From: Flaviramulus multivorans
Lineage (GTDB): Bacteria; Bacteroidota; Bacteroidia; Flavobacteriales; Flavobacteriaceae
Reading direction: 5' to 3'
NCBI RefSeq assembly: GCF_021728415.1
Contig: NZ_JAKKDV010000001.1
Span: 477,977 to 541,976, forward strand
Length of the DNA: 64,000 nucleotides
Position numbers and translations under genes: made by a program. The notes below the pieces were generated by a model. It saw only the letters and a program-made list of their open reading frames with translations. It had not been told where the DNA came from and did no database searches. Of this stretch, positions 10,741 to 19,874 are shown in pieces; position 1 is the stretch's first letter, and each line of letters opens with the position of its first letter.

Positions 10741-12453
10741 CTATCCTTTTATTGCTTGATGAAGAAACTCCGCAGCATAATATTCTTGGTACAATTCATG
10801 ACTAAAACTGAACTGATTGCTATCATTAACAAGAATATTTAAATCAATAGCTTTTCTGAGAAAACTCAGTAAGTTAATGTCTAATCCAAGTTCACTTTTC
10901 CTTTCTTGAAGTATTGGGATGATATACTCGTCTCTATCTAAACTTGAATTAGAGCCAGAAAGGTCTCTAGTTTGGAAACCTAAGTAACATAATAGCAAGT
11001 GAAAACGATCAATATCAAAATCTATAATCTGCCTTTGTTCTCTATCATAAAGACTGAACATAAAGGCTCTTATTATCTTACCTTTCTCATTAGGGACATT
11101 ACCATTTTTCAACACAACTCCAATGAGCATTGTCAACATTAAAGGATTTTGGACTATTCTTTTCAGTCTTTCCTTTTTATTAATTTCTTGTAGAATATAG
11201 TCCTTTACTTTTCTTCCATTTTTTGTAAGGAATTCCTCTATTTGCCTGTCGACCATTTTTTGGAGGGTAAAAACTGGAATTTTTCTTTGGTTTATACTGC
11301 TATCAAATTCTCTATTATAATGTTGTGGTCTGCTTGTGATTAGATAAAAGTTATCAGGATAGTTGTCAATCAGGTTATTGATTTGACTAAAAACGGAAAC
11401 TTTTATTTTATTTTCAATTTCATTTAGTCCGTCCAAGAATAAATTGATTCTTCCTGTTTTGAATATTGTCTCGGCAACATCATCATCAATATTCAACTTA
11501 GACTTTAATTTTTGAAATAGATTGTCCTTTTCTGTTAATGTTTTTAATTCAAGGTATATTGGGATGTTCCTACTGCTATCAGCAATAGCAGATTGGGCGT
11601 CCAGAAGATGCAAGAAAAGTATCGTGGTGCTCTTGCCCATTCCCACATCACCTAGTATTATCATTTTCTTTTCCTTGATTGTATTTCTCAAACTATCAAT
11701 TGTCCCTTCTCGAATATTTTGAGCCTCACCAATGTTTAATTCGTCTTCATCATTTATTAGCAGCTCTCGAGCATACAAATCAATATCATTCAATTCTTCC
11801 TTACCGTCAATATGGACAAATCGAGACTTGAGAACTTTAATTCTTTGGATTTCTGCCGCTAGGTACTTTGATAAATCAAATGGATTGATAGCTACTTTTA
11901 ATTCTCTTTTATGCTTAAAGGTTGTATATAAGTAGATTACTAGGACACTTCTGAGTTCATCATAGAGTTTGGCGTTTGTCCATTCGGTGCAATTATGCCC
12001 TTCTAAATTTCTTAAATTATATACTTTAATCAGGTGCTCAGAGAAATGAGATTTTTGGTTGGTTGAAAGATTTGTCGATGAATAATCAACTTTATTTATA
12101 TTTAAGCCTAATAATGAGATTAAAGCACTAAGGGCTTTCTTTTTGTCATTTTTTATTGACGCGTAAACAGAGGGCTTAACAAGAAATAAAACCTTTCTAA
12201 GAAAAGGTTCTATCTGTCCCGCTTCAGGGAAATATGCGTTTTTATCCACTCTAGATATCGGTTTGAGTAGAATCATTTCAAGCGCATTGGGTAAACGAGT
12301 TTCAATACCATTTATGGCTTTATCATCTACACTGAACCTCAGAACTGCAATGAAAAGGGCAGTTATTTCGTCAATGTTGATTTTTTTATCAACGGATAGT
12401 ACTTCTTTCGTTTCCGCAATAATTTCTTTCTTTATTTGATTCCAGTCCATCAT
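10741..12453 (-). CDS. NACHT-domain STAND NTPase, N-terminal part, with HEPN-like motif
   Basis: Signal-transduction ATPase of the kind used in bacterial antiphage defence. The NACHT core has Walker A GDVGMGKST (268-276), Walker B LFLDGLNE (338-345), ITSRP (372-376) and the terminal FSHELYQEYYAA (549-560). The helical N-terminal domain (about 1-190) contains RNLEGH (148-153), the R-x4-H arrangement of HEPN ribonucleases, so it may be the effector (inference). The protein stops right after the NACHT module where a C-terminal sensor is expected. That part is encoded next in the -1 frame. It is the first gene of an operon with the helicase and is preceded by an attC-like repeat. Confidence 0.85.
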   Translation of the reverse strand: MMDWNQIKKEIIAETKEVLSVDKKINIDEITALFIAVLRFSVDDKAINGIETRLPNALEMILLKPISRVDKNAYFPEAGQIEPFLRKVLFLVKPSVYASIKNDKKKALSALISLLGLNINKVDYSSTNLSTNQKSHFSEHLIKVYNLRNLEGHNCTEWTNAKLYDELRSVLVIYLYTTFKHKRELKVAINPFDLSKYLAAEIQRIKVLKSRFVHIDGKEELNDIDLYARELLINDEDELNIGEAQNIREGTIDSLRNTIKEKKMIILGDVGMGKSTTILFLHLLDAQSAIADSSRNIPIYLELKTLTEKDNLFQKLKSKLNIDDDVAETIFKTGRINLFLDGLNEIENKIKVSVFSQINNLIDNYPDNFYLITSRPQHYNREFDSSINQRKIPVFTLQKMVDRQIEEFLTKNGRKVKDYILQEINKKERLKRIVQNPLMLTMLIGVVLKNGNVPNEKGKIIRAFMFSLYDREQRQIIDFDIDRFHLLLCYLGFQTRDLSGSNSSLDRDEYIIPILQERKSELGLDINLLSFLRKAIDLNILVNDSNQFSFSHELYQEYYAAEFLHQAIKG

Positions 12454-13338: not shown

Positions 13339-14349
13339 ATGCTAATAGAAAACAAAATCACCAAAATAACCGTAACAACGCTTCAAGCACTATATTCAAG
13401 CAGCCTTTCATCCACCTTGGATGGAAAGCTGTTAATATTGGAAGGGTTCTATTTCCATAGAAATGGAAGGCTCTACAATAAATACTATTACGATGAAATA
13501 GTAAGCAAGGACAAGCAGAATAAAATCACTGCTCAGATAACCCCAAGTTTAAGAAAGCAACTAGTGGAAGGTGAATATTTCCAGTATGAAGGTTTTGTAA
13601 ATAAAACTCAGGGTTTATCTAAAGATTCCACCTTAAATGTGTTATTTACGGTATCTAAGATTGTAAAACATGAAGAAGAAGTTCAGCTTATTTCTAAAGT
13701 TGAATATGATGTTTTTCAAGCAAGATATGAACGTGATATTCCCTTGATAACGGATTTGCTTCTGGAAAAAATACAGTCTGGAAAAAAACCCATATTGGAT
13801 GTAATTACAGGGGTTCAATCAACATCAAAGGATGATTATTTAGCACAACTACCAGATTTTATTTATTATGAGATTAGGCACCATAAGTGTAGTTTGTCTT
13901 CAAAGGCTGATTTAATAAGGTTGATGAAATCTTATGATTTTAAAGGCTCAGATTTAGTGGTAATACTAAGAGGTGGTGGCAGTGGACTGGAAGTATTCAA
14001 TGAAATAGACCTATGCAAGAAAGCTTTAGAGTTGCCTGTGCCATTCATAACAGGAATAGGTCATGATGCTGACAAAACCTTATTGGAAAAGGTTGCTGAT
14101 AGGGGGTTTTCCACACCAACGGCAGTTGGGGCGTTTTTACAGCAAACCATTAATGTATACAAGAATAGACTAAAATCAATAAAAGCCAAAGATGATGAAC
14201 TTATTCAGTTAAAAAAACAAGCTGAAAATGAAAAGCTGTTATTATCAAACCAAATTACATCACAGAAAAGGAATCTAAACGTCATTTGGATAGTATTAAT
14301 AGCATTGATTGTAATTATTGGGGCACTATTATTTAAAATAATTGCTTAG
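13339..14349 (+). CDS. Exonuclease VII large subunit (XseA)-like protein with C-terminal membrane anchor
   Basis: Resembles the catalytic domain of XseA: SKDDYLAQL (near 163-171), RGGGSG (211-216), GIGHDAD with H242 and D245, and STPTAVGA (258-265), the positions of the family's active-site Asp, Arg, His and Asp. Residues 1-115 could form the OB-fold. Unlike cellular XseA (about 400-450 residues with a long coiled coil that binds XseB), it has a short charged helix (about 275-312) and ends in a membrane helix (314-335). No xseB lies nearby. It may be a membrane-tethered DNA nuclease, possibly defensive (inference). It overlaps the next gene by one base. Confidence 0.75.
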   Translation: MLIENKITKITVTTLQALYSSSLSSTLDGKLLILEGFYFHRNGRLYNKYYYDEIVSKDKQNKITAQITPSLRKQLVEGEYFQYEGFVNKTQGLSKDSTLNVLFTVSKIVKHEEEVQLISKVEYDVFQARYERDIPLITDLLLEKIQSGKKPILDVITGVQSTSKDDYLAQLPDFIYYEIRHHKCSLSSKADLIRLMKSYDFKGSDLVVILRGGGSGLEVFNEIDLCKKALELPVPFITGIGHDADKTLLEKVADRGFSTPTAVGAFLQQTINVYKNRLKSIKAKDDELIQLKKQAENEKLLLSNQITSQKRNLNVIWIVLIALIVIIGALLFKIIA

Positions 14350-14585
14350 TGACACTAAAAGAATTTAATAACTTAAATTTTGATGAAAAACTATTTACAG
14401 TTGTAGATAGGGGTACATTTTTGGATAATTATGTTACCACAGAAATACGCCTAAATCTTTATGCCGTTGATAAATTCTATGTTGAACTATCTTATGATGG
14501 TAAACAAAATAAGGTTGTAGAAGTTAGGAGTTATAAATCTGGTATCCATCTAGATAAATACACTAGCCATTTAGATTTAAAATAA
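14349..14585 (+). CDS. Hypothetical protein, 78 aa, coupled to the XseA-like gene
   Basis: Small soluble protein beginning MTLKEFNNLNFDEKLFTVVDRG, with no recognised family. The GTG start shares its first base with the last base of the upstream TAG, so translation is probably coupled and the product may be a partner of the membrane-anchored XseA-like nuclease. Its length (78) is close to that of XseB, but it lacks the obvious two-helix coiled-coil pattern of XseB. The beta-rich end (FYVELSYDGKQNKVVEVRSY) suggests another fold. Confidence 0.6.
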   Translation: MTLKEFNNLNFDEKLFTVVDRGTFLDNYVTTEIRLNLYAVDKFYVELSYDGKQNKVVEVRSYKSGIHLDKYTSHLDLK

Positions 14586-18617: not shown

Positions 18618-19874
18618 TTAAAAATATTTAGTTAATTCTAAAGCAATGTCCTTGTTACCTTTTCCTATATAGTTTAAGAACATTTGCTCTGTTTTATGTC
18701 CTGTAACGTATATTAGGAACGATGTAGGTATTTCTCCATAAAAATTAGAAGAAAATGATCTTCTTCCAATATGGCTGGTTACAAGTTCCCATTTTTCATA
18801 TTCACCAGCTTGCTTTCTATACGGAAATTTAGAACTATCATCAATTTTTTCAAGTTTACTGCCTTTTACTTTCTTTTTAATTTTAGCCTTTTTGCATACC
18901 TTTTTTATGTAGGCATTGTATTTCTGGCTTGAAATGGGCCTAGGGAACTCACCGCCTCTCTTCTCAAGTATCTTCAAAATTTTGGAGTGCAAAGGTATTG
19001 TCATGTTTTTACCTGTTTTCTTTTGGGTAAATTCAATAAGATGTTTACCTTTTTCAATTCTAATTTTCTCTTTAGTAAAACGCATAAATTCGCTTACGCG
19101 AGAGGCTGTGAAACAGCTTATTATTAGCCAGTCCCTTGCGTTTAATAAGCTCTCGTTAAGTTTTTTATCGTCGAGTTTTTCAATCGCCTCTAGCTCCTTA
19201 ATGGTCAGGTATATTATGTCACCCTTAACTTCTTTTAGTTTTATCCTTTCTAATTGAGGGCTTATTTCTATACCATTGTACATTGCATGTTTGCAGACTG
19301 CTTTTATAGTGTGTATAGCTCTGGAAATTGTATTGATAGCATAACCTTTTTTCAGGCAGAAAGCCTCAAAGTTGGTTTTAAATATACTATCTATATCAAT
19401 TATATTAATATTCTTACTTATACTGCTTTCGTATTTTTCAATTAAACTTCTAACAACTTTATAGTTTTTAAGTGTTTGTTCAGCAAGTTCGTTATTACGT
19501 TGCCTTAGATAAAAATCAAAATAAGGAAGAAGCCCCTTTGGTAAGGCTTTAGCTTTTTTAGGTGGGTTATAGTATAGATCTAATTGTTTTGATAGCCATG
19601 CTTTATCTATTCTGTCTGGAATAGTATCATTAAAGGCTTTTAGAATATGATTTTCAATTTTGTTAAGTTCAGCATTAACTTCAACTTGCTGATTCTTAAT
19701 ATCTATATCTTTTGGGCTTTTTTGAAAGTGATATTTATCCCAATAGAGCTTGGAGACCTCCAATTTGGTTTTACCACCAATAACGTGATTTGTATTATTG
19801 TAGGTGAAAAGCAGTCTTAAATTTAAAAATGCCTTTTCCTTTAGGGAACGATATAAGTAGTTTACAGCTGCCAT
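18618..19874 (-). CDS. Tyrosine-type site-specific recombinase (integrase)
   Basis: Catalyses integration and excision of the island. Its 418 residues have the Bacteroidota layout: N-terminal arm-binding domain (1-105), SAM-like core-binding domain (about 110-200) and C-terminal catalytic domain. The active-site set is complete: R259 (ASRVSEF), K286 (QKKTGK), H368 and R371 (SHIGR), H393 (TGHKTE) and Y402 (FLNYI). It is transcribed away from the island end at about 20,065, followed by the 218-aa, excisionase and DUF3987 genes. Being intact, it could still mobilise the element. Confidence 0.93.
   Translation of the reverse strand: MAAVNYLYRSLKEKAFLNLRLLFTYNNTNHVIGGKTKLEVSKLYWDKYHFQKSPKDIDIKNQQVEVNAELNKIENHILKAFNDTIPDRIDKAWLSKQLDLYYNPPKKAKALPKGLLPYFDFYLRQRNNELAEQTLKNYKVVRSLIEKYESSISKNINIIDIDSIFKTNFEAFCLKKGYAINTISRAIHTIKAVCKHAMYNGIEISPQLERIKLKEVKGDIIYLTIKELEAIEKLDDKKLNESLLNARDWLIISCFTASRVSEFMRFTKEKIRIEKGKHLIEFTQKKTGKNMTIPLHSKILKILEKRGGEFPRPISSQKYNAYIKKVCKKAKIKKKVKGSKLEKIDDSSKFPYRKQAGEYEKWELVTSHIGRRSFSSNFYGEIPTSFLIYVTGHKTEQMFLNYIGKGNKDIALELTKYF

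Follow-up and report, generated by a model that had tools for sequence, protein, structure and literature searches.

The window analysed here, a stretch of 64,000 nucleotides from Flaviramulus multivorans, carries on its forward strand a gene for a 336-amino-acid XseA-like protein (positions 13,339 to 14,349, stop included), recognized as an open reading frame and by Pfam (PF02601), Foldseek and VIA-align. From the N- to the C-terminus, the protein was characterized by an OB-type domain (residues about 32–111; 13,432 to 13,671), identified from the strands of the AlphaFold model and from Z scores of about 11 with OB-containing chains; an alpha/beta catalytic core (residues about 150–258; 13,786 to 14,112), delimited from the model and an HH alignment with canonical XseA; a helical stalk replacing the XseB-binding arm (residues 260–315; 14,116 to 14,283); and a transmembrane segment (residues about 316–336; 14,284 to 14,346). 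The gene was followed on the same strand by one encoding a 78-amino-acid alpha/beta protein (14,349 to 14,585), the GTG start of which shares one base, its G, with the TAG stop of the nuclease gene. A tyrosine integrase gene on the reverse strand (18,618 to 19,874; PF00589/PF13102), mentioned as context, probably belongs to the element that carries these two genes.

Exonuclease VII is usually treated as an XseA–XseB complex organized around an XseB-decorated arm. The match of the window nuclease to PF02601 (Exonuc_VII_L; E = 6.5e-21) involved only positions 61–179 of the 315 in the profile, over residues 193–307. It was the sole Pfam match of the protein, in which the RmuC domain (PF02646) was absent, and the score against the NCBIfam xseA model (TIGR00237) was 75 bits, below the equivalog cut-off of 180. 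The AlphaFold model, computed from 31 family sequences with rows from plasmid records left out, had a mean pLDDT of 86 and showed the OB domain (32–111), the alpha/beta core (about 152–257) and a single helix from residue 260 to 335. Its best match among solved structures by Foldseek was E. coli exonuclease VII (8TXR, E = 8e-15), to which VIA-align superposed 261 residues with a Z score of 17.1 and an rmsd of 13.9, a value that probably reflects a different placement of the domains. The structural match ended near residue 306 of the 456 in the E. coli protein. An earlier sequence-only reading of this locus had described the XseB-binding coiled coil as cut down; it is indeed shortened, but the loss is larger, as the whole second half of XseA, comprising the return of the arm and the C-terminus, is missing.

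The same reading had considered the active-site motifs of XseA to be kept, and the alignments agreed. Residues D166 (13,834 to 13,836), R211, located in an RGGG motif (13,969 to 13,971), and H242 and D245 (14,062 to 14,073) aligned with D155, R205, H238 and D241 of E. coli XseA, both in the 8TXR alignment and in a profile of 40 canonical XseA sequences. We take these four E. coli residues to be catalytic; the 8TXR entry is titled ExoVII(H238A) and thus shows H238 mutated, and no other of the four. In the 31-row family alignment, D166, R211 and H242 were invariant and D245 was at least 90% conserved. Substitutions were found in the most divergent plasmid members, with N in place of the acid at the D241 position, and in a Fusobacterium member, with K in place of the catalytic R.

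The C-terminal membrane helix proposed from the sequence is also predicted by hydropathy, and it extends well beyond this locus. The final 19 residues of the window nuclease had a mean Kyte-Doolittle hydropathy of 3.1. With a C-terminal segment of mean hydropathy of at least 1.6 as the criterion, a strong membrane segment was present in 64 of the 69 family members in the tree versus none of the 59 canonical XseA proteins retrieved by the profiles used for the family, an excess that far exceeds chance. Among the five members that failed this criterion, one had a borderline tail in which a membrane segment is nonetheless evident (L042), two were frameshifted genes with the tail encoded in the next open reading frame (L106 and L177), one was a shortened plasmid gene (L040), and in the Fusobacterium protein the membrane segment was internal rather than terminal. 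The predicted tail-anchored architecture is a conserved family trait and not a local oddity.

No N-terminal hydrophobic signal was detected in the window nuclease, and Lys/Arg residues averaged 2.1 just before the membrane segment versus 0.3 after it. Moreover, a Fusobacterium varium plasmid member had a near-threshold match to PG_binding_1 beyond its membrane segment (22.6 bits for a cut-off of 23). Because of these three observations, the nuclease domain is predicted to lie in the cytoplasm, anchored to the inner membrane in a putative N-in/C-out orientation with the C-terminus outside, and the degradation of DNA at the cell surface, as first suggested, is not what they point to. The Fusobacterium protein (L195, 3,905 to 5,443) combined an exonuclease VII-like core with K for R, a coiled coil, the membrane segment and the probable peptidoglycan-binding domain.

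The absence of an XseB partner was confirmed at the genome level, since no XseB (PF02609) was found in the 99.99% complete genome of the organism, which excludes a canonical XseA with an overlooked xseB. No second xseA was found there either, the window nuclease being the only PF02601 match. Among 60 sampled relatives, nine had any PF02601 match, counting the window gene and one other tail-anchored member.

The 78-amino-acid protein was modelled as an alpha-alpha-beta4-alpha fold (pLDDT 81) and had no match in Pfam, NCBIfam, PADLOC or PHROGs. As the sequence-only reading had assumed, it is not XseB, because its model is a four-stranded alpha/beta fold, and the lack of a Pfam match is in agreement. 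A resemblance of this model to the anti-CRISPR AcrF1 fold (E = 0.03, TM 0.49) was too weak to be used. The protein accompanied the nuclease at three other loci, with 42–76% identity, and its dN/dS at nuclease loci was 0.07–0.16; near the third nuclease copy of another Flavobacteriaceae genome (G072), a decayed relic of the gene was observed. The pair that was first proposed is a loose one: the 78-amino-acid family was found in 27 of the 229 sampled Flavobacteriaceae genomes, of which just two (G000 and G072) are known to have the tail-anchored XseA. We therefore rejected an obligate partnership, as the small protein usually occurs without the nuclease. Members of this small family were also found on five Bacteroidota plasmids. 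The small gene lay between UmuC and SRAP genes in one genome (G222) and close to SRAP on two plasmids, and we read its product as an independent small protein drawn from the same mobile/SOS gene pool. Overall, this small family (window 14,349 to 14,585, L190-L194 and L210-L219) was one of Flavobacteriaceae and Hymenobacteraceae, often plasmid-borne near JAB-domain or SRAP genes.

In profile searches of Bacteroidota genomes, full-length relatives of the window nuclease scored above 118 bits, versus about 81 bits or less for canonical XseA, decayed fragments excepted. In a maximum-likelihood tree, a single branch (SH-aLRT 100) separated the family from canonical XseA; plasmid members from other phyla had very long branches, and their exact positions are unsure. 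Tail-less homologues were thus not equally common, since canonical XseA is uncommon in this bacterial family and falls in a separate clade. The dN/dS ratio was 0.04–0.20 in close family pairs and 0.11–0.13 in two more distant pairs (L010-L031 and window-L032), with dS saturated for window-L010 and window-L031. The nuclease gene is under purifying selection, which is strong in close pairs, and this, together with the conserved residues, is not the pattern of an inactive gene.

The family had a patchy distribution on mobile elements, with as many as three intact copies as well as pseudogenes. Among Flavobacteriaceae, a protein search of 397 genomes detected it only in the genome studied here and in one other (G072), which had three intact copies, while a third genome contained decayed pieces; an uncultured Flavobacteriaceae also had a 66% identical copy with the 78-amino-acid gene alongside. 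Among Weeksellaceae, matches with E values of 1e-20 or lower were present in 57 of 296 genomes; several were decayed, and one, at 76 bits, is probably a canonical XseA. Other members were located on plasmids of Prevotella, Bacteroides, Thermus, Allomeiothermus, Sulfuricystis and Fusobacterium. A phage origin was rejected, as scans of viral contigs with three family proteins gave no match; one uncharacterised gut contig labelled as phage carried a family member, the sole such case. No description of a membrane-anchored XseA was found by full-text and in-paper searches, which covered the literature outside subscription papers. These exonuclease VII-related, XseB-less proteins with a predicted membrane anchor constitute an undescribed family.

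The neighbours of the tailed homologues include SOS genes, defence genes and integrases. A Y-family polymerase and/or a DnaE-type polymerase was encoded within 6 kb of 25 of the 69 members, a distribution that the tree explains with 10 changes. Within Weeksellaceae, the genes most often found nearby encoded a 265-amino-acid HTH regulator and an AlkB-like protein (each at 25 loci, with one AlkB-like gene outside Weeksellaceae); a divergent Y-family polymerase was present at 23 loci (one in Flavobacteriaceae) and a DnaE-type polymerase at 12 (two outside Weeksellaceae). At one locus (L106), DnaE, Y-polymerase, HTH regulator and AlkB genes all adjoined the nuclease, and Pfam confirmed the IMS, DnaE, HTH and 2OG-FeII dioxygenase domains. 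In G072 (L033, 6,854 to 10,297), umuC, an umuD-like S24 peptidase gene, SRAP and the nuclease followed one another in one operon, in which the SRAP stop overlapped the nuclease start. In a further genome (G857), a Y-polymerase, DnaE and an ExoIII-ligase fusion preceded the nuclease. Upstream of a family member (L110, 7,183 to 10,107), a 974-amino-acid protein was judged by eye to resemble exonuclease III in its first part and an ATP-dependent DNA ligase thereafter.

The SOS signal is in part due to shared descent within Weeksellaceae, because clustering left a Y-polymerase neighbour in 4 of 30 clusters at 80% identity (P about 4e-4) and in 2 of 21 at 70% (P about 0.02), these P values resting on a rough null of our own, 1.2% per locus, derived from two to six such genes per genome. 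Many members lacked a nearby SOS gene, including that of the window, which lies neither within nor beside the Bacteroidota translesion cassettes (UmuDC-SRAP, or Y-polymerase/DnaE with HTH regulator and AlkB) that many other members occupy. No regulatory box shared by the upstream regions of family genes and umuC genes was found. To our knowledge, no membrane-anchored nuclease has been described in Bacteroidota translesion cassettes.

In the window itself, the neighbours were a NACHT protein, a DUF3987 protein, an HTH_17 protein and the tyrosine integrase. The NACHT-domain gene (10,741 to 12,453; PF05729, E = 5e-8), which adjoins the nuclease and has a weak EruA-like NCBIfam match, is possibly an uncatalogued defence gene. 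Related integrases were found 0.3–4.3 kb from seven family members, and no convincing tRNA or att repeats were detected as island borders. Elsewhere in the family, defence genes were near the nuclease at several loci, including a type I methyltransferase with TOTE domains (L175), a type III-like restriction enzyme with a NERD-UvrD helicase (L171), and Septu PtuA/PtuB (L031). At a further locus (L174, 4,430 to 13,944), the nuclease was directly downstream of a full-length Druantia DruE (DruE3, PADLOC 1-1946), with ShosA/ShosT-like genes on the other flank. None of the four genes scanned was recognized as DruH, with which DruE is usually paired in type III. The window nuclease is not a member of a catalogued anti-phage family, as it had no match in PADLOC 2.0. 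Other members gave weak PADLOC matches only, mostly over coiled coils and none to the conserved core, and those resembling ZorA were judged to be compositional.

The anatomy of the protein is well supported, since fold, conserved active site, family-wide tail, XseB absence, purifying selection and neighbourhoods were all computed. Its biological role, which we infer from neighbours, is split between damage tolerance and defence. We consider it an even call that the protein is a tail-anchored, cytoplasm-facing and XseB-independent catalytic half of exonuclease VII, which processes single-stranded DNA in DNA damage or in conflicts with mobile DNA. The OB domain and the alpha/beta core would represent the retained catalytic half; a self-associating coiled-coil stalk, presumably oligomeric, would lead to a single C-terminal membrane helix, replacing the return half of the arm and the XseA C-terminus; and the nuclease would work without XseB. 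Single strands at the inner membrane, such as gaps, flaps, and displaced or entering strands, would most likely be degraded or trimmed, assuming a specificity for single-stranded DNA. The gene may be carried as cargo by mobile elements, defence islands and inducible translesion-synthesis cassettes. A role against incoming DNA, as suggested in the sequence-only reading, is possible given the defence islands and mobile elements, and a DNA-damage/SOS role is backed by neighbours elsewhere in the family at least as well. A broader proposal is more tentative: that exonuclease VII-type proteins with a tail anchor make up a separate, widespread nuclease family, which works at the inner membrane without XseB, processes single strands for both inducible mutagenesis cassettes and mobile-DNA conflict systems, and thereby connects damage tolerance with defence.

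Less probable than the preferred reading is a primarily anti-invader (anti-phage or anti-plasmid) nuclease, the tether of which would hold the enzyme away from the chromosome and at the site of entry of foreign or rolling-circle single strands, a purpose that has been proposed for the anchor of Shield ShdA. The DruE, ShosA/T-like, Septu, type I and III restriction, TOTE and NACHT neighbours are consistent with it, as are the sporadic distribution and the decayed copies. So is the precedent of ShdA of the Shield system, a membrane-bound cytoplasmic nuclease that is toxic without its anchor, truncated forms being uncloneable, and that reduces transformation (PMC10270631). Like ShdA, the window nuclease would present a DNase domain, predicted to be cytoplasmic, on one inner-membrane helix and near defence genes; however, ShdA has an RmuC (PD-(D/E)XK) fold and an N-terminal anchor, that is, an unrelated fold in the reversed orientation. 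Many members, moreover, occur in damage cassettes or beside ordinary genes, the neighbours are variable with no fixed defence operon, and no PADLOC model matches the conserved core.

It seems improbable that catalysis is reduced or lost and that the protein is a DNA tether or sensor recruiting single-stranded DNA or a repair complex to the membrane. The long stalk and the anchor would suit such a function, but the window protein and almost every other member retain all four catalytic positions, and purifying selection on close pairs is strong. We find it still harder to credit that the nuclease replaces a housekeeping exonuclease VII. Although the genome lacks canonical xseA and xseB, and PF02601 is scarce among the sampled relatives (9 of 60), most relatives lack both proteins and hence need no replacement, and the gene is sporadic, mobile-element-borne and multicopy, with pseudogenes. 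A decaying xseA fragment with an accidental hydrophobic tail, to which the missing second half and the decayed copies in several genomes might point, is refuted by conservation across the family, in which 64 of the 69 members have the tail, the clade is distinct and close pairs show a dN/dS of 0.04–0.20; it has next to no probability.

Among the closest known systems, E. coli XseA itself (8TXR; PF02601, TIGR00237) is the best structural match, with a common OB domain, alpha/beta core and D/R/H/D positions. The window nuclease differs from it by the absence of XseB from the genome, the loss of the second half, the predicted C-terminal membrane anchor, the sub-equivalog score and the separate clade. 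If a family has exchanged XseB and half of XseA for a membrane anchor while preserving the active site, the catalytic core would be shown to act alone and in a spatially controlled manner. That these genes recur next to translesion polymerases, DruE, Septu and restriction genes points to a function at the interface of damage tolerance and defence against mobile DNA. It also follows that, on Bacteroidota and Thermus plasmids, many genes with the plain annotation 'exodeoxyribonuclease VII large subunit' encode a different kind of protein.
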